From Pseudomonadota bacterium (GTDB lineage Bacteria; Pseudomonadota; Gammaproteobacteria; Steroidobacterales; Steroidobacteraceae), in the NCBI GenBank assembly GCA_018241505.1, contig JAFEDS010000017.1, positions 434,001-498,000 on the forward strand: 64,000 nt of DNA. The letters are read 5' to 3'. Both the position numbers and the translations under genes were made by a program. Every line of letters starts with the position of its first letter. The first letter of the stretch is position 1. This document shows, piece by piece, positions 14,256-25,467 of this stretch. Under the pieces are notes generated by a model. The model did not search any database. It was not told the DNA's origin and saw nothing but the letters and a program-made list of their open reading frames with translations.

Positions 14256-15596
14256 TTATACGTTCAGCAGCAGATGCTCACGCTCCCACGAGCTGATGAC
14301 CTGCAAAAACACCTCGTATTCGGCTTCCTTGACAATGGTGAACGCCGAGACGAACGCTTCGCCTAGAAGCTTCACCAGCGGCTCCGATTCACGCAAATTG
14401 CGCAGCGCCTCGTCCAGCGAACGCGGCAGGCCGAACGGCAGATCGTGCGCACTGCCCGTAATCGGATCACTGGGCTGCAGGTTTTCGACCATGCCGAGAT
14501 AGCCACAGGCCAGGGAGGCCGCGATGGCGATGTACGGATTGGCATCCGCCCCACCGACCCGGTTTTCCACGCGGCGGGCATCGGCGCTCGACATCGGGAC
14601 CCGCAATCCGGCCGTGCGGTTGTCGTAGCCCCAATGCACGTTGATGGGCGCAGACAGGTAGCGTGTCAGGCGGCGATAGGAATTGACGTTGGCGCAGAAC
14701 AACCCCATGGCGGCGGGCATGTATTTCTGCAGCCCGGCGATGTGGGAGAAAAAGAGCTGCGATGGCGTCCCGTCGGGATTGCTGAAGATGTTCTTGCGGG
14801 TCTTTGTGTCCACCACGCTCTGGTGGATGTGCATGGCGCTGCCAGGCTCCTTCGCATGCGGCTTTGCCATGAAGGTCGCGTAGATCTTGTGGCGCAGCGC
14901 CGCTTCGCGGGCCGTCCGCTTGAACAGAAACGCCTGGTCGGCCAGATCCAGCGGGTAGCCGTGGATCAGGTTGATCTCCATCTGTGCCGGCCCATCCTCA
15001 TGAATGAGCGTGTCGATTTCGATCTCCTGGTCCTCGCAGAACTGGTAGATGTCATCGAACAGCGGATCGAACTCGTTGACCGCCGCGATGCTGTACGACT
15101 GGCGTCCCGGCTCCGCACGGCCCGAACGGCCCACGGGCGGACGCAAGGGATAGTCGGAGTCCTTGTTCTGCTCAATCAGATAGAACTCGAGCTCGGGAGC
15201 GACAACCGGCTCCCAACCTCTTTGGGCGTAGAGTTCGAGAACATTGCGCAGAACGTGGCGTGGGGCCATCGATACGCGACGACCATCTGAATAGAAACAG
15301 TCGTGAATGACCTGCGCGGTGGGCTCCGCGGCCCACGGCACCCGGCGAACCGTCTTCGGGTCTGCCTTGAGAACAATGTCGATTTCCGCGGGGCTCATGG
15401 CATCGGCCGGCTCCGGCGGATAGTCGCCGGTGACGGTCTGAAGAAAGACACTCTCGGGCAGGCGCATGCCCTCGTCCTCGGCAAACTTCGTGGCCGGCAT
15501 GATTTTCCCGCGCGCAATGCCCGCCATGTCAGGAATGATCGCCTCGACCTCGGAGATACCGTGGTCGCGGAAGAACTGCTGAATCTCACTCGCCAT
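14256..15596 (-). CDS. puuA: Gamma-glutamylputrescine synthetase
   Basis: Glutamine synthetase-fold ligase that joins glutamate to putrescine, using ATP, in the first step of the Puu pathway; 446 aa. The N-terminal beta-grasp region is followed by catalytic motifs APELEFYLIEQNKDSDYPL, GPAQMEINLIHG and SAMHIHQSV. The pathway context (potFGHI, puuB, puuC, puuD, puuR) supports PuuA rather than GlnA. The gap to puuD is 58 bases and to potF nine. Confidence 0.94.
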   Translation of the reverse strand: MASEIQQFFRDHGISEVEAIIPDMAGIARGKIMPATKFAEDEGMRLPESVFLQTVTGDYPPEPADAMSPAEIDIVLKADPKTVRRVPWAAEPTAQVIHDCFYSDGRRVSMAPRHVLRNVLELYAQRGWEPVVAPELEFYLIEQNKDSDYPLRPPVGRSGRAEPGRQSYSIAAVNEFDPLFDDIYQFCEDQEIEIDTLIHEDGPAQMEINLIHGYPLDLADQAFLFKRTAREAALRHKIYATFMAKPHAKEPGSAMHIHQSVVDTKTRKNIFSNPDGTPSQLFFSHIAGLQKYMPAAMGLFCANVNSYRRLTRYLSAPINVHWGYDNRTAGLRVPMSSADARRVENRVGGADANPYIAIAASLACGYLGMVENLQPSDPITGSAHDLPFGLPRSLDEALRNLRESEPLVKLLGEAFVSAFTIVKEAEYEVFLQVISSWEREHLLLNV

Positions 15597-15654
15597 ACAA
15601 ATCGCCTTTGACGCTCAGCCTCAATGGACCGCGCGCCTCGTCTATCCAATGCGT

Positions 15655-16401
15655 CTATCTGATTCGGTTGCGCGCCGCGGCGCCGAAGGCCGCAAACAAC
15701 GCGCGTGAGAATGGATTGCTCATCACCTTCCACTCCGGATGCCACTGCACGGCAAGAGCAAACGTCTTCGCCTGCTCGACCCTGAATGCTTCAATGAGCC
15801 CATCGGGAGCGCGTGCCTCTACCGCGAGGCCCGGTCCCAGCCGATCAACGCCCTGGGAATGCAGGGAGTTGACCTGAATTCGATCCTGGTCTGTTAGGCC
15901 ACGTAAGGCGCCACCGGGTTCGAGCACCACCTCGTGCGCGGGCCCGTACTGCACGTCGAGCTCGCGTTGGGTGTCCTCGCGATGATCGCGCTTGCCTTCG
16001 ACCTCGTGCACTTTCTGGTGCAACGTGCCGCCGTAAGCCACATTCATTTCCTGGAAGCCCCGGCAGACTCCCAACACTGGAATTCCAGCAGCCACGGCCT
16101 TGCGGATGAGCGGCAGCGTCGTCGCGTCCCGCGCCGGGTCATGCAGGGTTCCCGGATCGCTGGCCGTCCCGGAGTAATGGTGCGGCTCCACGTTCGAGGG
16201 GCTACCGGTCAGCATCAGGCCATCGAGCCGCTCCAGCAGCTCATCCATGCCCAGCTCGTCAGCCAGGGCCGGAATCAGCAGCGGCAAGGCGCCGGCAGCA
16301 TCCAGCACCGCGCGGGCGTACTTGTCGCCCACGACATGGAAGGGGTGCAGACCGAGCATGCGCCGGTCGGCAGGAATACCGATTAACGGACGAGCGGGCA
16401 T
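15655..16401 (-). CDS. puuD: Gamma-glutamyl-GABA hydrolase
   Basis: Class I glutamine amidotransferase-like hydrolase that releases GABA and glutamate from gamma-glutamyl-GABA; 248 aa. The nucleophile Cys lies in PVLGVCRGFQEMNV and the catalytic His-Glu pair in VQWHPEW. The ATG at 16401 is chosen because it begins the conserved PARPLIGIPAD segment; the longer ORF reads through the promoter region. It is the first gene of the minus-strand puu/pot run. Confidence 0.94.
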   Translation of the reverse strand: MPARPLIGIPADRRMLGLHPFHVVGDKYARAVLDAAGALPLLIPALADELGMDELLERLDGLMLTGSPSNVEPHHYSGTASDPGTLHDPARDATTLPLIRKAVAAGIPVLGVCRGFQEMNVAYGGTLHQKVHEVEGKRDHREDTQRELDVQYGPAHEVVLEPGGALRGLTDQDRIQVNSLHSQGVDRLGPGLAVEARAPDGLIEAFRVEQAKTFALAVQWHPEWKVMSNPFSRALFAAFGAAARNRIR

Positions 16402-16419
16402 AAGGGGCGGGTGCCGGGC

Positions 16420-16440
16420 GGTGTTTATTATAATTAACAA
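16420..16440. promoter_or_regulatory. Putative PuuR operator, puuD/puuB divergent promoter
   Basis: A 21-bp sequence, GGTGTTTA-N7-TAACAA, identical outside its seven-base centre to one at 24052-24072 beside puuR. It is an imperfect inverted repeat (TGTT...AACA). The AT-rich centre contains TATAAT on both strands, so a bound repressor would cover the -10 elements. Confidence 0.75.
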
Positions 16441-16650
16441 ACCCGCCAGCCAATTCTCCAAACACGGCCTATTAGACCACAGCTCGAGGGTCCCGGGCTG
16501 CCCCCTCCTCCACGGTTCTTCATGGCTACGGAAAAGGCTCAAAGGGGCCGTTCCAGGGGGGACCGATTTGCCCGGAATGTGCGCTGGTCGCTATCCTCCG
16601 CCGGCGCGGCCACGGTGTGGCGCGTCGAAATATCCTAAACAGCTAGGACC
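16441..16650. other. Remainder of puuD/puuB intergenic region
   Basis: About 210 bases between the operator and puuB. There is no convincing ORF, and no strong Shine-Dalgarno site before the puuB ATG. It probably holds the puuB leader. Confidence 0.4.
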
Positions 16651-17934
16651 ATGACCATACAGCCCCACGCTTCTTCCTATTACGCCGCCTCCGCCCACCC
16701 GGCTCCCGTGCGTCCCGCGCTCATGGGCACCGTGGATTGCGACGTGTGCGTGGTCGGAGCCGGGATTGCCGGGTGCTCGACTGCCCTGCATCTGGCGGAG
16801 CGTGGCTACCGGGTCGTCCTGCTCGAAGAGAACCGCATCGCTTGGGGTGCCTCGGGCCGCAGCGGAGCGCAGGCGATCTACGGCCTGGCCGCGCCCCAGA
16901 GCAAGATCAAGAAGCTGGTGGGGGCTGCGGCAGCACGCACAATCTGGGACGTCTCCGTTGAAGCCCTGGACCTGATCCGTGCGCTGGTGGCCAAACATCA
17001 CATCGACTGTGACTACACCCAGGGTCACATGTTGACGGCCATCAAACCGCGCCACGACACAGACCTTCACTCCGAGCTCGCGGAGCTGCGCGATGAGTAT
17101 CAATACCACAGCATCCGTTACATGCCCCGTGACGAAGTCCGTTCGTTACTGGCTTCGGACCGTTACCTCGGTGCGCTGTATGACACTCGAAGCGGCCATC
17201 TGCATCCGCTCAACTACACGTTGGGATTGGCCGCGGCGGCGGAGCGCGCCGGCACGCTGATTTTTGAAGGCACCCGAGCAATCGATTTCGCCAACACAGC
17301 CGCCGGCGCAACCATCCGTACCGCCGGGGGCGAAGTGCGCAGCCGCTTTGTTGTGTTGAGTGGCAATGTCTTTCTGGGCGATACCGCCCCGGCACTGAAA
17401 TCGAAGATCATGGCGGTCGCCACCTACATTGTCGCCACCGAGCCTCTGGGCGCGGAGCGAGCGCAGGCGCTCATCAAGAACGGTTCGGCCGTCAGCGACA
17501 TGAACTGGGTGTTGGATTACTTCCGCCTGTCTGCGGATCACCGGCTGCTGTTCGGCGGCCGGGTCAACTACTCGGGGTTGTCATCGTTCGATGCGCCCAG
17601 CGCCACGCGCAAACGCATGCTGGGCGTGTATCCGCAGCTTGCCGACGTCAATATCGATTTCGCGTGGGGCGGCGATGTGGATATCACCTTGAATCGTGCA
17701 CCCCACTTCGGGCGGCTCGCGCCCAACGTGTATTTTCTGCAGGGATTCTCGGGACACGGCATTGCGCTGACCGGCATTGCCGGGAAGATGGTCGCCGACG
17801 CGATTGCCGGAACGGCTGAGCGGTTTGATGTGTTCGCACGCATTCCACATGCGGATTTCCCGGGCGGCGCTGCATTGCGCCGCCCGGCGTTGGTGCTCGC
17901 GATGTTGTACTACAGAATCAAGGACCTGCTGTAG
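16651..17934 (+). CDS. puuB: Gamma-glutamylputrescine oxidase
   Basis: FAD-dependent D-amino acid oxidase-family enzyme that oxidises gamma-glutamylputrescine to the aminobutyraldehyde with release of hydrogen peroxide and ammonia; 427 aa. The dinucleotide fold CVVGAGIAGCSTALHLAERG lies at residues 31-50, followed by NRIAWGASGRSGAQ and the C-terminal GFSGHGIALTGIAGKMVADA. It is divergent from puuD across the shared operator region. Confidence 0.93.
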   Translation: MTIQPHASSYYAASAHPAPVRPALMGTVDCDVCVVGAGIAGCSTALHLAERGYRVVLLEENRIAWGASGRSGAQAIYGLAAPQSKIKKLVGAAAARTIWDVSVEALDLIRALVAKHHIDCDYTQGHMLTAIKPRHDTDLHSELAELRDEYQYHSIRYMPRDEVRSLLASDRYLGALYDTRSGHLHPLNYTLGLAAAAERAGTLIFEGTRAIDFANTAAGATIRTAGGEVRSRFVVLSGNVFLGDTAPALKSKIMAVATYIVATEPLGAERAQALIKNGSAVSDMNWVLDYFRLSADHRLLFGGRVNYSGLSSFDAPSATRKRMLGVYPQLADVNIDFAWGGDVDITLNRAPHFGRLAPNVYFLQGFSGHGIALTGIAGKMVADAIAGTAERFDVFARIPHADFPGGAALRRPALVLAMLYYRIKDLL

Positions 17935-17950: not shown

Positions 17951-18973
17951 CTAAAGCAACTGCTCCGCAATCTGCACCGCATTCAGTGCCGCACCCTTCA
18001 GCAACTGGTCGCCTGCGACGAACATCGCAATCGAGTGACCGCTGGGGTCACTGACATCCTGGCGGATTCTGCCCACCAGAATGGGGTCCTGCCCCGAGGC
18101 ATCCTTGGGCATGGGGAAGTAGTTCTTCTCCACATCATCGACAATCTTCACTCCGGGCGCGCCTGCCAGGCTGTCGCGCACGAACGCGGGGCTGATCGGA
18201 CGCTCGCATTCAAAAGTCAATGAAACACAGTGAGCCCGCAGCACCGGTACCCGAACACACGTCGCCGACACGCGCATTTCCGGCTCGCCGAAAATCTTGC
18301 GCGTCTCCTGGATGACCTTGGTTTCCTCCTCGTTGTAACCGGTCACCGGATCGACCGTCGTGTTGTGACTGAAGAGGTTGAACGCATACGGATGAGGCAA
18401 CACAGTGTTGCGATACTCGCGGCCATCGAGGTACGCACGGGTCGACTCACTCAACTCCGCCATCGCGGCGGCGCCGGCGCCCGAAGCCGCCTGGTAGGTG
18501 GAAATGATCAGCCGGCGGATGCGGTTGGCGCGGTGAATGGGCCACAGGGGCGTAATCGAGATAATGGCCGCGCAGTTGGGGTTGGCAATGATGCCCTGAT
18601 GCGCGCGGATGGCACCCGGGTTTATTTCCGGTACGACCAGGGGCACATCGCCGTTCATGCGGAATGCCGAAGAGTTATCGACCACGACCGCTCCCTTGCT
18701 GACGGCCACGGGCGCAAACTTCTTCGAGGTCGAGCTGCCGGCGGAAAACAACCCGATGTTGACCCCCTCGAGGCCCTTTTCCGTCAGCTCCTGCACGGGC
18801 ACTGCCTGACCGCGAAACGGCAGGGTCTTGCCCACAGAGCGGGCGGATGCGAACAACCGCAACTCCGACAACGGAAAGTTGCGGCGCTCGAGGCACCCCA
18901 ACAGCTCGATCCCGACGGCGCCGGTGGCCCCGGCAATGGCGACGACGGGCGCCGCTGAACGACCAGATTGCAT
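17951..18973 (-). CDS. asd: Aspartate-semialdehyde dehydrogenase
   Basis: Reduces aspartyl phosphate to aspartate semialdehyde, the branch point to lysine, threonine, methionine and diaminopimelate; 340 aa. The NADP-binding GATGAVGIELL, catalytic Cys in NPNCAAIISI and QAASGAGAAAMAE are present. The ATG at 18973 has a GGGAG site; an upstream in-frame ATG does not. It interrupts the putrescine genes and is preceded by a leader peptide gene and terminator (19008-19159) that look like a transcription attenuator. Confidence 0.95.
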   Translation of the reverse strand: MQSGRSAAPVVAIAGATGAVGIELLGCLERRNFPLSELRLFASARSVGKTLPFRGQAVPVQELTEKGLEGVNIGLFSAGSSTSKKFAPVAVSKGAVVVDNSSAFRMNGDVPLVVPEINPGAIRAHQGIIANPNCAAIISITPLWPIHRANRIRRLIISTYQAASGAGAAAMAELSESTRAYLDGREYRNTVLPHPYAFNLFSHNTTVDPVTGYNEEETKVIQETRKIFGEPEMRVSATCVRVPVLRAHCVSLTFECERPISPAFVRDSLAGAPGVKIVDDVEKNYFPMPKDASGQDPILVGRIRQDVSDPSGHSIAMFVAGDQLLKGAALNAVQIAEQLL

Positions 18974-19007: not shown

Positions 19008-19118
19008 AAAAACGCGAAAGCCCCGCTCGTTTCCGGGCGGGGCTTCCTTCAGATCTCTTTCGCGCTTGGCTCGTCAGTCGATCAGCGCGCGTGAGCCTCC
19101 GGAAGCCCCCTGGGCTTC
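19008..19118 (-). promoter_or_regulatory. Putative asd transcription attenuator
   Basis: Reading the minus strand, four segments can pair alternately. Segment 1 GAAGCCC (19118-19112) pairs with segment 2 (19108-19102), 7 bp with a 3-nt loop. Segment 2 GGGGCTTCC (19109-19101) pairs perfectly over 9 bp with segment 3 GGAAGCCCC (19047-19039). Segment 3 AAGCCCCGC (19045-19037) pairs perfectly over 9 bp with segment 4 GCGGGGCTT (19026-19018). A T5 run follows at 19012-19008. The Lys14-Lys15 codons of the leader peptide overlie segment 1. Pairings were read by eye. Confidence 0.8.
19016..19047 (-). terminator. Rho-independent terminator upstream of asd
   Basis: Stem of 9 perfect G/C-rich pairs, extendable to 11 with one G-T pair, and a 10-nt loop. 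Three bases then TTTTT follow on the minus strand. It lies between the leader peptide gene and asd, so it ends transcription before asd unless the antiterminator forms. Confidence 0.85.
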
Positions 19119-19159
19119 TTGGCTTTAATCGTCGTGCGCTTGGTCATCGCCATCAGCAT
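19082..19159 (-). CDS. asd leader peptide (25 aa)
   Basis: A short reading frame upstream of the terminator and asd on the same strand. Residues 5-15 read MTKRTTIKAKK, so nine of eleven are Met, Thr, Ile or Lys, all end products made through aspartate semialdehyde. In-frame ATGs lie at 19159, 19153 and 19147; none has a strong Shine-Dalgarno site, so the exact start is uncertain. The stop is 35 bases before the terminator stem. This has the layout of thrL- or trpL-type leaders. Translation has not been shown. Confidence 0.72.
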   Translation of the reverse strand: MLMAMTKRTTIKAKKPRGLPEAHAR

Positions 19160-19283
19160 GGGAGTGACGCTACCGTACAAGCGCGGGTCTGTAAAGCGAC
19201 AGTTATGTTATGTGCGTGCCCGAATTGGGGGCTCGGGGTTACCCTGATGTTGACCGTTCCCACCGGAGCGCTATTCTCGAGTC

Positions 19284-21997: not shown

Positions 21998-23491
21998 TCA
22001 ACCCAGGTCCAGCCAGGTGGTCTTCAGCTCGGTGTACTTCTCGAGCGCGTGCAGCGACTTGTCGCGGCCGATGCCCGATTGTTTGAACCCGCCGAAGGGC
22101 ACCGTAATGTCATCCGCGTCATAACAGTTGATGAACACGGTACCGGCACGCAGCGCCTTGGCGGTCCGATGGGCCACCGTGATATCGCGCGTCCAGACCG
22201 CCGCCACGAGCCCGTAGATCACATCGTTCGCGATCTCAATCGCCTCGTCGATATTCTTGAACGCGAGGGTGGACAGCACCGGCCCGAAAATCTCTTCACG
22301 AGCAATCGTCATGCCGGGCCGCACGCCATCGAATACCGTCGGTTCCACAAAGTAGCCACCGCTGTCCTCGCGGACCCTGCGGCCGCCCAGGAATACGTTC
22401 GCACCGTCCTTGCGCCCTACATCGATATAACCCAACACCCGCTTGAGCTGGATATCATCGACGATGGCGCCGAGCTTGGTGTTTGAATCCAGCGGATCTC
22501 CCGGCGCGAGACTCTTGCCAATGCTGCGGATTTTCTCCAGCACCTGGTCCTTGACGCTGTCCTGGACCAGCAGCCGCGATCCGGCCGAGCACACTTCGCC
22601 CTGGTTGTCGAAAATCGCGTAGGCGGCCGCCGTCGCCGCCTTGTCCAGGTCGGGACAGTCGGCCATTACAATGTTGGGCGATTTGCCGCCACACTCGAGC
22701 GACACCCGCTTCATGTTGGATTGGCCGGCGTACTGCATGATATTGCGGCCGGTGGCCGTGGAACCGGTGAAGGCAATGCAATCAACATCCATGTGCAGCG
22801 CCAGCGCCTTGCCGGCTGTCTGGCCCAGGCCCGGCACCACGTTGAACACGCCCTCCGGGATGCCTGCTTCAACGGCAAGCTGCGCTATCCGAATAGCCGT
22901 CAGCGGCGACTTCTCGGATGGCTTGAGTACAAAAGAGTTTCCAGCGGCGAGAACGGGGCCGATCTTCCACGCGGCCATCAGCAGCGGATAGTTCCACGGC
23001 ACGATCGCGCCCACGACACCCATCGGCTCACGGGTGATTGTCGCAAGCGCGCCGGGGCCCGTCGGCGCCACTTCGTCGTAGATCTTGTCGATGGCTTCGG
23101 CGTACCACTCAATGCACCGGGCCGCCGCCGGAATGTCGACACCGAGGCTGACCGAGATGGGCTTGCCCATGTCCAGGGTTTCGAGCAGCGCCAACTCTTC
23201 GCCGTGCTGGCGGATGAGATCGGCGAAGCGTTTCAGAATGACCTGGCGTTTGTTGGGCGCAAGGTTGGACCAGACGCCCTTACGGAACGCGGCCCGGGCC
23301 GCGGCCACCGCGCGATTGATATCCTCGGTATCTCCGGAAGCAACGCGAGCCAGCAGCTTGCCCGTACCGGGGTTGATGGAGTCAAACGTCTGGCCAGAGG
23401 CGGCTTCGGTGTAGTTGCCGTTGATGAACGCCTTGGTACGGATGTCGAGACTGCGGGCACGGTCGTGCCAGGAAATCTTGTCGGCGGCCAT
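21998..23491 (-). CDS. puuC: Gamma-glutamyl-gamma-aminobutyraldehyde dehydrogenase
   Basis: NAD(P)-dependent aldehyde dehydrogenase oxidising the PuuB product to gamma-glutamyl-GABA, which PuuD then hydrolyses; 497 aa. PWNYPLLMAAWKIGPVLAAG, the glycine motif FTGSTATGRNI, the catalytic Glu in LECGGKSPNIV and the catalytic Cys in QGEVCSAGSRL are present. The ATG at 23491 has an AGGAGA site. It follows puuR by ten bases. Confidence 0.93.
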   Translation of the reverse strand: MAADKISWHDRARSLDIRTKAFINGNYTEAASGQTFDSINPGTGKLLARVASGDTEDINRAVAAARAAFRKGVWSNLAPNKRQVILKRFADLIRQHGEELALLETLDMGKPISVSLGVDIPAAARCIEWYAEAIDKIYDEVAPTGPGALATITREPMGVVGAIVPWNYPLLMAAWKIGPVLAAGNSFVLKPSEKSPLTAIRIAQLAVEAGIPEGVFNVVPGLGQTAGKALALHMDVDCIAFTGSTATGRNIMQYAGQSNMKRVSLECGGKSPNIVMADCPDLDKAATAAAYAIFDNQGEVCSAGSRLLVQDSVKDQVLEKIRSIGKSLAPGDPLDSNTKLGAIVDDIQLKRVLGYIDVGRKDGANVFLGGRRVREDSGGYFVEPTVFDGVRPGMTIAREEIFGPVLSTLAFKNIDEAIEIANDVIYGLVAAVWTRDITVAHRTAKALRAGTVFINCYDADDITVPFGGFKQSGIGRDKSLHALEKYTELKTTWLDLG

Positions 23492-23501
23492 CTGAATTCT
23501 C

Positions 23502-24050
23502 CTAGAAACTCGGCGGGGTGCTGGCGCTGATGATCTCACACGTCTCGCGCCCGACATTCCGGAATCGGTGCGGTAACTGGCTGGCAAAGTAATACGCTTC
23601 GCCTGGGCCCAGTACGCGGGTGTTTCCGCCGACCGTGACTTCGAGGCGCCCTCGCACCACCACACCACCCTCTTCGCCGCGATGAACGATCATTTCATCG
23701 CCGGTACCAGCACCAGCAGCATAGCGCTCGTGAAGTATCGTGAGTTGCCGTCCAGGGCGCTGAGCAGCCAGCAGCCGTAATGAGACTTCCTCATTGCCCA
23801 GCTCCACGAGCTCGTCCGTGCCAAAGAACGTCTGTGGTGGCGTGCCGAGATCGAGGGTGAAAAACTCAGCAAGCGACATCGGCACGCCATCGAGCACCTT
23901 CTTGAGAGAGCTCACCGAGGGGCTGACCCGGTTCTGCTCAATCAAGGAAATCAATCCGTTGGTGACGCCCGCCCGCCGCGCCAGCTCACGCTGCGAAAGG
24001 CCGAACGTGGTGCGGATTCCGCGCAGCCGGGCTCCCACATCAATACTCAT
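23502..24050 (-). CDS. puuR: Putrescine-responsive repressor PuuR
   Basis: XRE-family helix-turn-helix plus C-terminal cupin; 182 aa. The DNA-binding part is LSQRELARRAGVTNGLISLI (about residues 18-37) and the cupin holds GEEGGVVVRGRLEVTVGG and GPGEAYYFASQLPHRF. E. coli PuuR represses puu genes until putrescine binds. The ATG at 24050 has no Shine-Dalgarno site and lies two bases from the operator-like repeat, so the message may be leaderless or nearly so, and autorepression is likely. Confidence 0.93.
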   Translation of the reverse strand: MSIDVGARLRGIRTTFGLSQRELARRAGVTNGLISLIEQNRVSPSVSSLKKVLDGVPMSLAEFFTLDLGTPPQTFFGTDELVELGNEEVSLRLLAAQRPGRQLTILHERYAAGAGTGDEMIVHRGEEGGVVVRGRLEVTVGGNTRVLGPGEAYYFASQLPHRFRNVGRETCEIISASTPPSF

Positions 24051-24051
24051 G

Positions 24052-24072
24052 GGTGTTTAAGATTTTTAACAA
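24052..24072. promoter_or_regulatory. Putative PuuR operator, puuR/aminotransferase divergent promoter
   Basis: Second copy of GGTGTTTA-N7-TAACAA; the outer 14 bases match the copy at 16420-16440 and the total length is the same. It sits between puuR and the plus-strand aminotransferase, so it could control both. A TTGACA on the minus strand (24111-24106) is a possible -35. Confidence 0.75.
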
Positions 24073-24156
24073 GATAGCCGGAATGTCGCCCCGGATAGCC
24101 TCTTTTGTCAAATTTCCTTATCATCAGGGTACCTTCCCCAACTGCCCGAGCGCACC

Positions 24157-25467
24157 ATGTCCCGATCCGAACTCGAAGCCTTTTGGATGCCGTTCACCTC
24201 GAACCGGCAGTTCAAGTCAAAGCCCCGGCTGTTGAGCAAGGCCTCGGGCATGCACTACTGGACACCGGACGGCCGGCAGGTCCTCGATGCTGTAGCGGGA
24301 CTGTGGTGTGTGAATGCCGGACACGGCCGGCGTGAGATCACGCAGGCGGTCGCAAGCCAGTTGGAGACCATGGACTATGCGCCGCCATTTCAAATGGGAC
24401 ACCCCCCGGCGTTTGAGCTGGCCAATCAGATCGTCAAGATCACGCCTCCGGAGCTCGATCATGTGTTCTTCACAAACTCCGGCTCGGAGTCTGTAGACAC
24501 CGCGCTCAAGATTGCACTCGCTTACCACCGCGCTCGTGGCGAAGCGACACGTACGCGGCTCATCGGACGCGAGCGCGGCTATCATGGCGTTGGGTTCGGT
24601 GGCATTTCGGTGGGCGGCATTCTTCCGAACCGGAAGATGTGGTCCAACTCATTACTTCCCAGCGTCGATCATCTTGCTCACACGCACGATCTGGGGAAGA
24701 ACGCGTTCACGCGAGGCCAGCCAGAGCACGGCGCGAACCTCGCTGAAGAATTGGAGCGACTGGTCACGCTGCATGATGCGTCAACCATTGCGGCGATCAT
24801 TATTGAGCCAATTGCCGGATCGACCGGTGTGTTGATTCCGCCGAAGGGATACCTGAAGCGCATTCGAGAGATCTGCGACCGGCACGGCATTCTGTTGATA
24901 TTCGACGAAGTCATTACGGGATTCGGCCGCACCGGCTCACCGTTCGCGGCCCAGGAGTTTGGTGTTACCCCGGACCTGCTGACACTGGCCAAGGGCCTCA
25001 CGAACGGTTGCATTCCCATGGGAGCGGTCGTTGCGCGCAAGTCGGTGTACGAAGCGTTCATGCAGGGACCCGACAATGCCATCGAGTTGTTTCACGGCTA
25101 CACGTATTCAGCCCACCCGGCAGCGTGCGCGGCGGGACTTGCAACGCTCGGCATCTACGAGCGGGAAGGTCTTCTCACGCGCGCCAAGTCGATGGCCAAG
25201 ACTTGGGAAGACGCGGCTCATTCGCTCCGCGGCCTGCCGCACGTCATCGACGTTCGCAACTACGGGCTCATCCTGGGCCTCGAGTTGGAATCGATTGCCG
25301 GCAAGCCCGGCGCGCGCGCGTTCGAGGTCTATACGAAGTGTTTCGAGCGAGGCTTGCTGATCCGGCAGACGGCGGACATTATTGCGCTGTCACCGCCGCT
25401 CATTGTCGAGCCGGCACAGATCGATCAGATCTTCTCCACCCTGCGCGATGTACTGAAGAGCCTGTAA
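24157..25467 (+). CDS. Class III omega-aminotransferase (beta-alanine/GABA/putrescine:pyruvate type)
   Basis: PLP enzyme of 436 aa in the omega-amino acid:pyruvate aminotransferase group. Seen: MPFTSNRQFKSKPRLLSKA at the N-terminus, FFTNSGSESVDTALKIA for phosphate binding, LIFDEVITGFGRTG and the Schiff-base Lys in LTLAKGLTNGCIPMGA. With PuuD releasing GABA, a role in GABA or direct putrescine transamination is the natural reading; beta-alanine is an alternative. It is divergent from puuR across the operator. Confidence 0.9.
   Translation: MSRSELEAFWMPFTSNRQFKSKPRLLSKASGMHYWTPDGRQVLDAVAGLWCVNAGHGRREITQAVASQLETMDYAPPFQMGHPPAFELANQIVKITPPELDHVFFTNSGSESVDTALKIALAYHRARGEATRTRLIGRERGYHGVGFGGISVGGILPNRKMWSNSLLPSVDHLAHTHDLGKNAFTRGQPEHGANLAEELERLVTLHDASTIAAIIIEPIAGSTGVLIPPKGYLKRIREICDRHGILLIFDEVITGFGRTGSPFAAQEFGVTPDLLTLAKGLTNGCIPMGAVVARKSVYEAFMQGPDNAIELFHGYTYSAHPAACAAGLATLGIYEREGLLTRAKSMAKTWEDAAHSLRGLPHVIDVRNYGLILGLELESIAGKPGARAFEVYTKCFERGLLIRQTADIIALSPPLIVEPAQIDQIFSTLRDVLKSL

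Follow-up and report, generated by a model that had tools for sequence, protein, structure and literature searches.

The DNA upstream of asd in this Steroidobacteraceae genome raises the question of whether a very short reading frame and a hairpin, both lying between a promoter and the gene, set asd transcription by amino acid supply. Asd is a shared step toward lysine, threonine, methionine and isoleucine, and in E. coli the threonine operon attenuator, thrL, combines a leader peptide rich in the pathway end products with alternative hairpins and a terminator. Analysis of the window (the whole stretch of 64,000 nucleotides) and of related loci indicates, with a probability of about 0.85, that asd is controlled here by a ribosome-mediated transcription attenuator responsive to the supply of lysine and threonine. 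This reading builds on a codon cluster, on mutually exclusive helices whose changes compensate each other, on where the promoter lies, and on the conservation of the leader and its inheritance together with asd. Because attenuator-like leaders recur before asd in other bacteria, the element looks like a real genetic switch, and one that has received little description. Its kind, the attenuator, is known; the target asd and the Lys/Thr codon specificity are new. The asd leader shares with thrL a peptide rich in pathway residues, clustered Thr codons, alternative hairpins and a terminator, and differs from it in acting on the asd branch-point step, in having Lys as a main codon and in the placement of the start codon next to the -10 box; it also has no match to the attenuator leaders of Rfam.

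The features of the locus are listed in Table 1. The asd product scored 382.7 bits against TIGR01296 (cut-off 324.2) and 410.5 bits against NF011456 (cut-off 223). The 25-codon frame that the original prediction had placed upstream of asd on the same strand was located base for base (19159 to 19082), and its residues 5-15 (M T K R T T I K A K K), described as almost all Met, Thr, Ile or Lys, belong to that set at 9 of 11 positions. The proposed helices were recovered at their exact coordinates: a 7-bp 1:2 pairing, a perfect 9-bp 2:3 pairing (GGGGCTTCC at 19109-19101 with GGAAGCCCC at 19047-19039) and a perfect 9-bp 3:4 pairing (AAGCCCCGC at 19045-19037 with GCGGGGCTT at 19026-19018), and the two Lys codons said to overlie segment 1 (19120-19115) do overlap GAAGCCC (19118-19112). 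Two elements needed revision. The 1:2 pause hairpin is present with its 7 bp, and its family form is extended by a second arm, AGCGC (19140-19136) with GCGCT (19088-19084), which we call segment 0 and its partner; the terminator has its hairpin and T5 tail, the latter displaced 3 nt from the stem (19012-19008) and weaker than in 14 of the 22 same-genus leaders described below. RNAfold formed the 3:4 hairpin with 11 bp plus 2 at -25.3 kcal/mol (z -3.8), and the complete window leader outfolded all 200 dinucleotide shuffles (z -3.4); a consensus terminator scan was by itself unremarkable, with 3 sites in the region vs 2.5 in shuffles.

Table 1. Positions of the asd leader features in the window
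Feature	Position	Strand	Remark
-35 hexamer TTTACA	19190..19195	-	in all 22 same-genus leaders, 17-nt spacer
-10 hexamer TAGCGT	19167..19172	-	-10-to-ATG distance 6-10 nt in 22/22
Leader peptide frame, MLMAMTKRTTIKAKKPRGLPEAHAR and stop codon	19082..19159	-	family alignments A1 and A2
Control codon cluster, Thr Lys Arg Thr Thr Ile Lys Ala Lys Lys	19115..19144	-	
Segment 0, AGCGC in Lys-Arg codons	19136..19140	-	pairs with GCGCT at stop codon
Segment 1, GAAGCCC	19112..19118	-	7 bp with segment 2; family helix 82.8% paired
Segment 2, GGGGCTTCC	19101..19109	-	alternative partner of segments 1 and 3
GCGCT at leader stop codon	19084..19088	-	segment 0 partner; invariant in 22 A1 rows
Segment 3, GGAAGCCCCGC	19037..19047	-	9 bp with segment 2, 9-11 bp with segment 4; compensatory changes in both
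Segment 4, terminator 3' arm, GCGGGGCTTTC	19016..19026	-	family 3:4 helix 94.6% paired
Terminator T5 tract	19008..19012	-	inside tail of terminator scan
asd, aspartate-semialdehyde dehydrogenase, 340 aa	17951..18973	-	TIGR01296, NF011456, PF01118, PF02774

The frames flanking asd (window 14256-17934 and 21998-25467) appear by eye to belong to an amine or polyamine catabolism cluster, with neighbours that are glutamine-synthetase-like, amidotransferase-like, an FAD oxidoreductase (the one that was domain-tested), an aldehyde dehydrogenase and an aminotransferase. The host genome carries two asd genes, 44% identical (window 17951-18973 and G000:C1:94192-95181); in the upstream stretch examined of the second, canonical gene (L049) no Lys/Thr-rich frame was seen.

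An asd protein search covered 60 genomes including the window's own, 59 of them with a match. Among the 37 genomes of the window's genus (Steroidobacteraceae-type MAGs), 34 have a window-type asd with readable upstream DNA, and the leader is present in 22 of these loci (window included), absent from 11 (L003, L004, L005, L010, L013, L014, L019, L020, L023, L024 and L035) and undecidable in one, L033, where the contig begins and the frame is unrecognisable. The 22 leaders share a promoter, a start codon 6-10 nt past the -10 box, a frame of 23-26 codons and a GC-rich hairpin before asd; TTTACA, found in all of them, is also the anchor by which they were extracted, and it is kept in 9 of the 11 leaderless asd upstream regions. 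In the window, 7 nt separate the end of the promoter-like TTTACA-17-TAGCGT from the leader start codon. Since the start codon follows the -10 hexamer this closely in 22 of 22 leaders, transcription should initiate on the start codon or only a few bases away from it, giving an mRNA that is probably leaderless or almost leaderless.

The helices were followed in two alignments, A1 with the 22 genus rows and A2 with 39 leaders (mean column identity 59%), the starts and frames of the wider set being chosen by the analyst's reading. A2 omits the near-copies L015, L026 and L027 from 42 cores and is also without L033, L034 (a contig end), L093 and L101. The Lys/Thr-rich frame and the 2:3 and 3:4 pairings are kept in the 39 leaders, with compensatory changes, as the original prediction would have it. 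For the 0/1:2 and 3:4 helices together, drawn like all helices from the single row L009, 88.3% of the cells are paired vs 29-48% when the arms are slid, and 36 cells carry two-sided changes, counted per sequence and not per event, vs 12.4 in shuffles (0 of 500). Two-sided changes affect 10 pairs (1 of 500 shuffles) and the covariation score was reached by 0 of 500 shuffles; further pair types were barely above shuffles (35 of 500). The segment 0 arm is paired in 79.5% of cells with 3 of 5 pairs changed on both sides (G-C to A-U, 7 rows), and the 3:4 helix has 5 of 11 pairs so changed. The 2:3 helix is paired in 78.9% of cells vs 35-57% when slid, with 24 two-sided cells vs 10.8 in shuffles (0 of 500); the number of its pairs with a two-sided change, 5, does not stand out, being reached in 259 of 500 shuffles, and for further pair types the excess was slight (52 of 500).

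The 2:3 pairing was also assessed by a duplex permutation test, which leans less on the alignment than pair counts do. The leaders' own duplexes with segment 3 beat re-paired ones (0 of 20,000 permutations for the 39 rows; 2 of 20,000 for 22 rows chosen by the analyst), and in 37 of 39 leaders they exceeded the mean strength of synonymous variants, significantly at 0.05 in just 16 of 39. The covariation of the arms is visible by eye: CTTCC/GGAAG in the window, CTCTGG/CCAGAG in most of the genus and CTTCGG/CCGAAG in Bradyrhizobium. Coordinates and folding simulation both place the control codons so that they overlap or abut segment 1 and a stall frees segment 2; simulated stalls from the fourth codon onward gave at least 7 expected 2:3 pairs in 39 of 39 leaders, and stalls at codons 2-3 did not free segment 2 in some rows. 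The full-length RNA forms 3:4 (mean 10.0 pairs), with the exception of L085, where 2:3 outweighs 3:4, and at equilibrium the released RNA before segment 4 divides about equally between 2:3 and 0/1:2 (means 7.5 and 7.4 pairs).

The T runs behind the hairpin bear on how the leader would act. Six or more T follow it in 14 of the 22 genus leaders, five in the window and L012, and four or fewer in 6. The weak tracts in the window and 7 other leaders, together with alphaproteobacterial leaders that by eye have a hairpin and no T run (L103, L187, L188, L190 and L191), would suit control by the same leader through Rho or through asd translation instead of an intrinsic terminator. We consider this unlikely, given the longer runs in the majority and given that 22-60 nt separate the 3' arm of the hairpin from the asd start (45 nt in the window by the same count), so that the asd start region is not itself covered.

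A still smaller chance falls to the view that the hairpin is a constitutive terminator of the upstream rlmKL gene or of stray transcription, with the frame present by chance. By eye, an rlmKL-like frame does end just upstream in L006, L007 and L012; against this, a promoter-like pair lies between the upstream gene and the hairpin in the 22 leaders, the hairpin is retained beside differing upstream neighbours (by eye), the frame composition and 2:3 are conserved, and 428 nt lie between the end of rlmKL and the leader start in the window.

The codons themselves argue for attenuation by lysine and threonine. At codons 2-14 of the 39 leaders we counted 24.3% Lys, 23.9% Thr, 7.3% Ile and 2.8% Met, and Lys plus Thr make up 48%; reading this DNA in frames +1 and +2 gives 11% and 6% (8.1 and 4.1% Lys, 3.2 and 2.2% Thr). 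Core columns 1, 7 and 8 of the 22 genus leaders hold only Lys, Thr (12 cells), Met (1 cell) and a gap (1 cell). The Arg of the core fits the RNA, because its codon belongs to the arm that pairs with the stop-codon region. Lys and Thr are the conserved control codons and Ile and Met are minor; of the residues first noted in the frame, Lys and Thr stand, Ile (7%) and Met (3%) recede, and the extra Met codons are not conserved in the family. Constraint on the peptide itself is weak: a dN/dS-like test on the leader frame revealed no strong purifying selection (pN/pS 0.77 over 9 codons and 19 rows, three rows having been dropped for gaps), so that conservation concerns composition and not the exact peptide.

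These observations leave very little probability to two other explanations. A metabolite riboswitch, of the lysine class or new, would account for a structured 5' region before an amino-acid gene, and lysine riboswitches before asd exist, but conservation here falls on a reading frame and its two kinds of codon, little is conserved between that frame and the hairpin, and Rfam returned 0 families at gathering score in the window and, up to E 1 in 34 loci including the window's, no riboswitch, T-box or attenuator family, only weak unrelated matches. That the frame is a small protein acting in trans, with incidental hairpins, has precedents in S. meliloti, where SEP5 is detectable as a tagged protein and the function of peTrpL goes beyond attenuation, according to the sections available of PMC10117765; it is just as improbable here, since the RNA is under stronger constraint than the weakly constrained peptide, which in the L006 group bears a 2-nt length change near its C-terminus. 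A trans role of the leader peptide could be an addition to attenuation.

SEP5 is also a partial precedent for the asd attenuator, which had been presented as undescribed. According to the available sections of PMC10117765, SEP5 is a short frame, shown to be translated, within the 5' UTR of a gene named 'aspartate dehydrogenase' by the authors; six Thr and three Lys codons lie towards its 3' end, it is said to be conserved only in Sinorhizobium, and it is suggested as a possible leader peptide. By description alone, it resembles the asd leader as a Thr/Lys-rich short frame proposed to be a leader peptide; unlike for the asd leader, no terminator, antiterminator or wider family is given in those sections. 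The same sections describe the S. meliloti trpL/rnTrpL, which is leaderless, with the frame starting at the RNA 5' end, as is probable for the asd leader, and which differs from the asd leader in being a Trp attenuator before trpE (PMC10117765). The attenuator specificities named in the 2013 text, as far as available, are His, Leu, Thr and Trp, plus Ile/Val and Phe, with Lys not among them (PMC3766115), and term searches of PMC2965389, PMC3766115 and PMC4833913 returned no mention of asd. Searches of a collection of open-access full texts yielded no described asd attenuator; subscription papers may contain an earlier prediction.

Under the proposed attenuation, translation of the frame, stalling, termination in vivo and the ligands are all predicted from the sequence, and the switch would work as follows. 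The RNA would begin with the leader start codon or a few bases from it, and the first ribosome would load on a leaderless mRNA. With ample Lys- and Thr-tRNA the ribosome would pass segment 2 and reach the stop codon, the 0/1:2 hairpin would re-form, segment 3 would be left free to build the 3:4 terminator, and asd would mostly remain unread. With Lys or Thr short (in some species perhaps Ile or Met), the ribosome would stall in the cluster and cover segments 0 and 1, segment 2 would pair with segment 3, and with the terminator blocked RNA polymerase would enter asd. By counting both Lys and Thr codons, such a leader would give the asd branch point a simple sensor with two inputs. Lys/Thr attenuation before asd would also make sense of SEP5 in S. 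meliloti, and as Bradyrhizobium carries relatives of the switch, direct testing is possible. The alignment and covariance model should aid the annotation of short frames skipped by genome annotation.

In the named collection the nearest relatives, among the best 80 of 156, carry the labels Steroidobacteraceae and other Pseudomonadota MAGs. With a DNA profile built from the 22 leaders, the unit was also found upstream of asd in Bradyrhizobium, Acetobacteraceae, Desertibaculum and others, with leader peptides such as MMSATTKTTTKTKPSGGAGGVRA and MRRSTDKRTTTSTKTPAGVVEACAR. Among the matches listed, at least 16 of 192 Alphaproteobacteria (181 with an asd match) have a window-type asd, and the leader precedes 12 of these 16 genes, 11 recognised by a Lys+Thr share above 22% and L186 by eye. 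All 16 have at least two asd matches each, among the matches listed.

An asd tree of 117 rows, built by a quick method and with many weak inner branches, placed all 52 rows with a profile-type leader inside one clade of 69 rows (SH-aLRT 99), and the profile-type leader needs at least 5 changes on this tree vs 38.5 for shuffled labels. The labels cover the profile-type leader only, rows outside the clade being labelled by the lack of a profile match. The simplest reading of these sequence data is a single origin of the profile-type leader in Pseudomonadota, followed by inheritance jointly with asd and by several losses among Steroidobacteraceae and their close kin. In L035, L055 and L061 a terminator-like hairpin and the promoter region are kept before asd and the leader frame is gone; such a terminator without a switch should hold asd low, or serves another role. 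The asd genes of L094 (a MAG labelled Bordetella parapertussis) and L082 (a MAG labelled Marinimicrobia) group with Bryobacterales and an alphaproteobacterial row, and because of this grouping both labels look wrong.

A search of 274 gammaproteobacterial genomes with model R1 matched 82 of them at E 0.001, none above 47 bits except the window's own genome (84.5 bits). Asd adjoins the match in 8 of the 45 loci L132-L176 (L132, L152-L157 and L167), and 11 others are leaders of other genes. The remaining loci were attributed to GC-rich terminators of a generic kind, on individual inspection in the case of four (L133, L160, L164 and L165).

Lys/Thr-rich frames also precede asd genes of other types. 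We examined 110 alphaproteobacterial asd upstream regions (30 loci and 80 stretches taken from a ranked list, not at random; 16 window-type and 94 canonical) for frames with 7 or more Lys/Thr in 11 residues, and found them before 18 of the 110 genes, 9 window-type and 9 of the 94 canonical. Controls gave 0 of 2200 and 1 of 1100 shuffles, 0 of 110 reverse complements and 0 of 416 other windows. Under a fixed rule, a terminator follows 7 of the 9 frames before canonical asd and is absent in L264 and L279. The threshold of 7 would count just 2 of the 22 genus leaders (14 score 6 and 6 score 5); lowering the threshold to 6 makes RT and RS frames no rarer than KT frames in the 110 regions (22, 22 and 21), but shuffles also score highly for RT and RS, at 122 and 234 of 1100, vs 1 for KT.

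Scanning 52 named loci without a profile-type leader revealed Lys/Thr frames in two Phycisphaerae, L104 (MLTTTTKGTTSTK) and L107 (MTFTKSTTKTTA), and by eye a third Phycisphaerae locus, L113, has ATGAAAACGACCAAGCGCTAG before asd, with a minimal Met-Lys-Thr-Thr-Lys-Arg frame (MKTTKR). A frame with score 6 in L117 apparently lies within the end of the upstream gene. The Phycisphaerae frames are not of the profile type, so the count of changes on the tree is valid for the profile type alone. The Planctomycetota frames and the leaders of canonical asd genes would be separate inventions or far older kin of the profile-type leader.

In 299 Pseudomonadota genomes the asd leader model recognised 27 places at E 1e-6, several of them at other genes. 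A Thr-rich leader (MNKLRSAALTTTATAHGGSPSGRAR and alike) with a terminator precedes a short threonyl-tRNA-synthetase-like gene in L158, L159, L161, L169 and L171, the L169 product being above the TIGR00418 cut-off. Lys-Lys leaders (MITKPCAAISKKGPHPGASDFCAH and MITKSCARVSKKGPHPGTSECCAR) with a terminator stand before a dapA-like gene in L170 and L176, the L170 product reaching 202.4 bits vs a cut-off of 206.15. A leader and terminator with no clear control amino acid precede a DUF1127 gene in L175 (domain-tested) and, by eye, in L168, L173 and L174. Several of these genomes are, judging by their asd genes and leaders, probably Bradyrhizobium. The thrS-type and dapA-type leaders, found by the asd leader model, are similar to the asd leader in length and 3' part, and the thrS-type shares with the asd leader a GCGCGC close to the stop as well as a GGCCCCGCCGG-type terminator; both differ from it in control codons and targets, and the dapA-type also in terminator sequence. 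The codons follow the target, Thr before thrS and Lys-Lys before the dapA-like gene, which supports the attenuation reading.

We tentatively suggest, as an idea with rather less than even odds, that these leaders form a family of leaderless attenuator cassettes in Alphaproteobacteria and Steroidobacteraceae, in which a shared 3' module of GCGCGC close to the leader stop and a GC-rich terminator (often GGCCCCGCCGG) was copied to several genes and retuned by exchange of the codon cluster (Lys and Thr for asd, Thr for threonyl-tRNA synthetase, Lys for the dapA-like gene and an unknown signal for DUF1127), and that Lys/Thr leaders were, in addition, invented more than once before asd (canonical alphaproteobacterial asd, Planctomycetota). 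If so, two-amino-acid sensing at the asd branch point would be a recurrent solution. A further frame was seen in the host genome at L287 (G000:C1:32442-32529), where the Gln-rich MSFLFQATSQQQQPFQQGRRPCLLQT is followed by a strong hairpin with a T run and then, by eye, by a LysE-type exporter-like gene.
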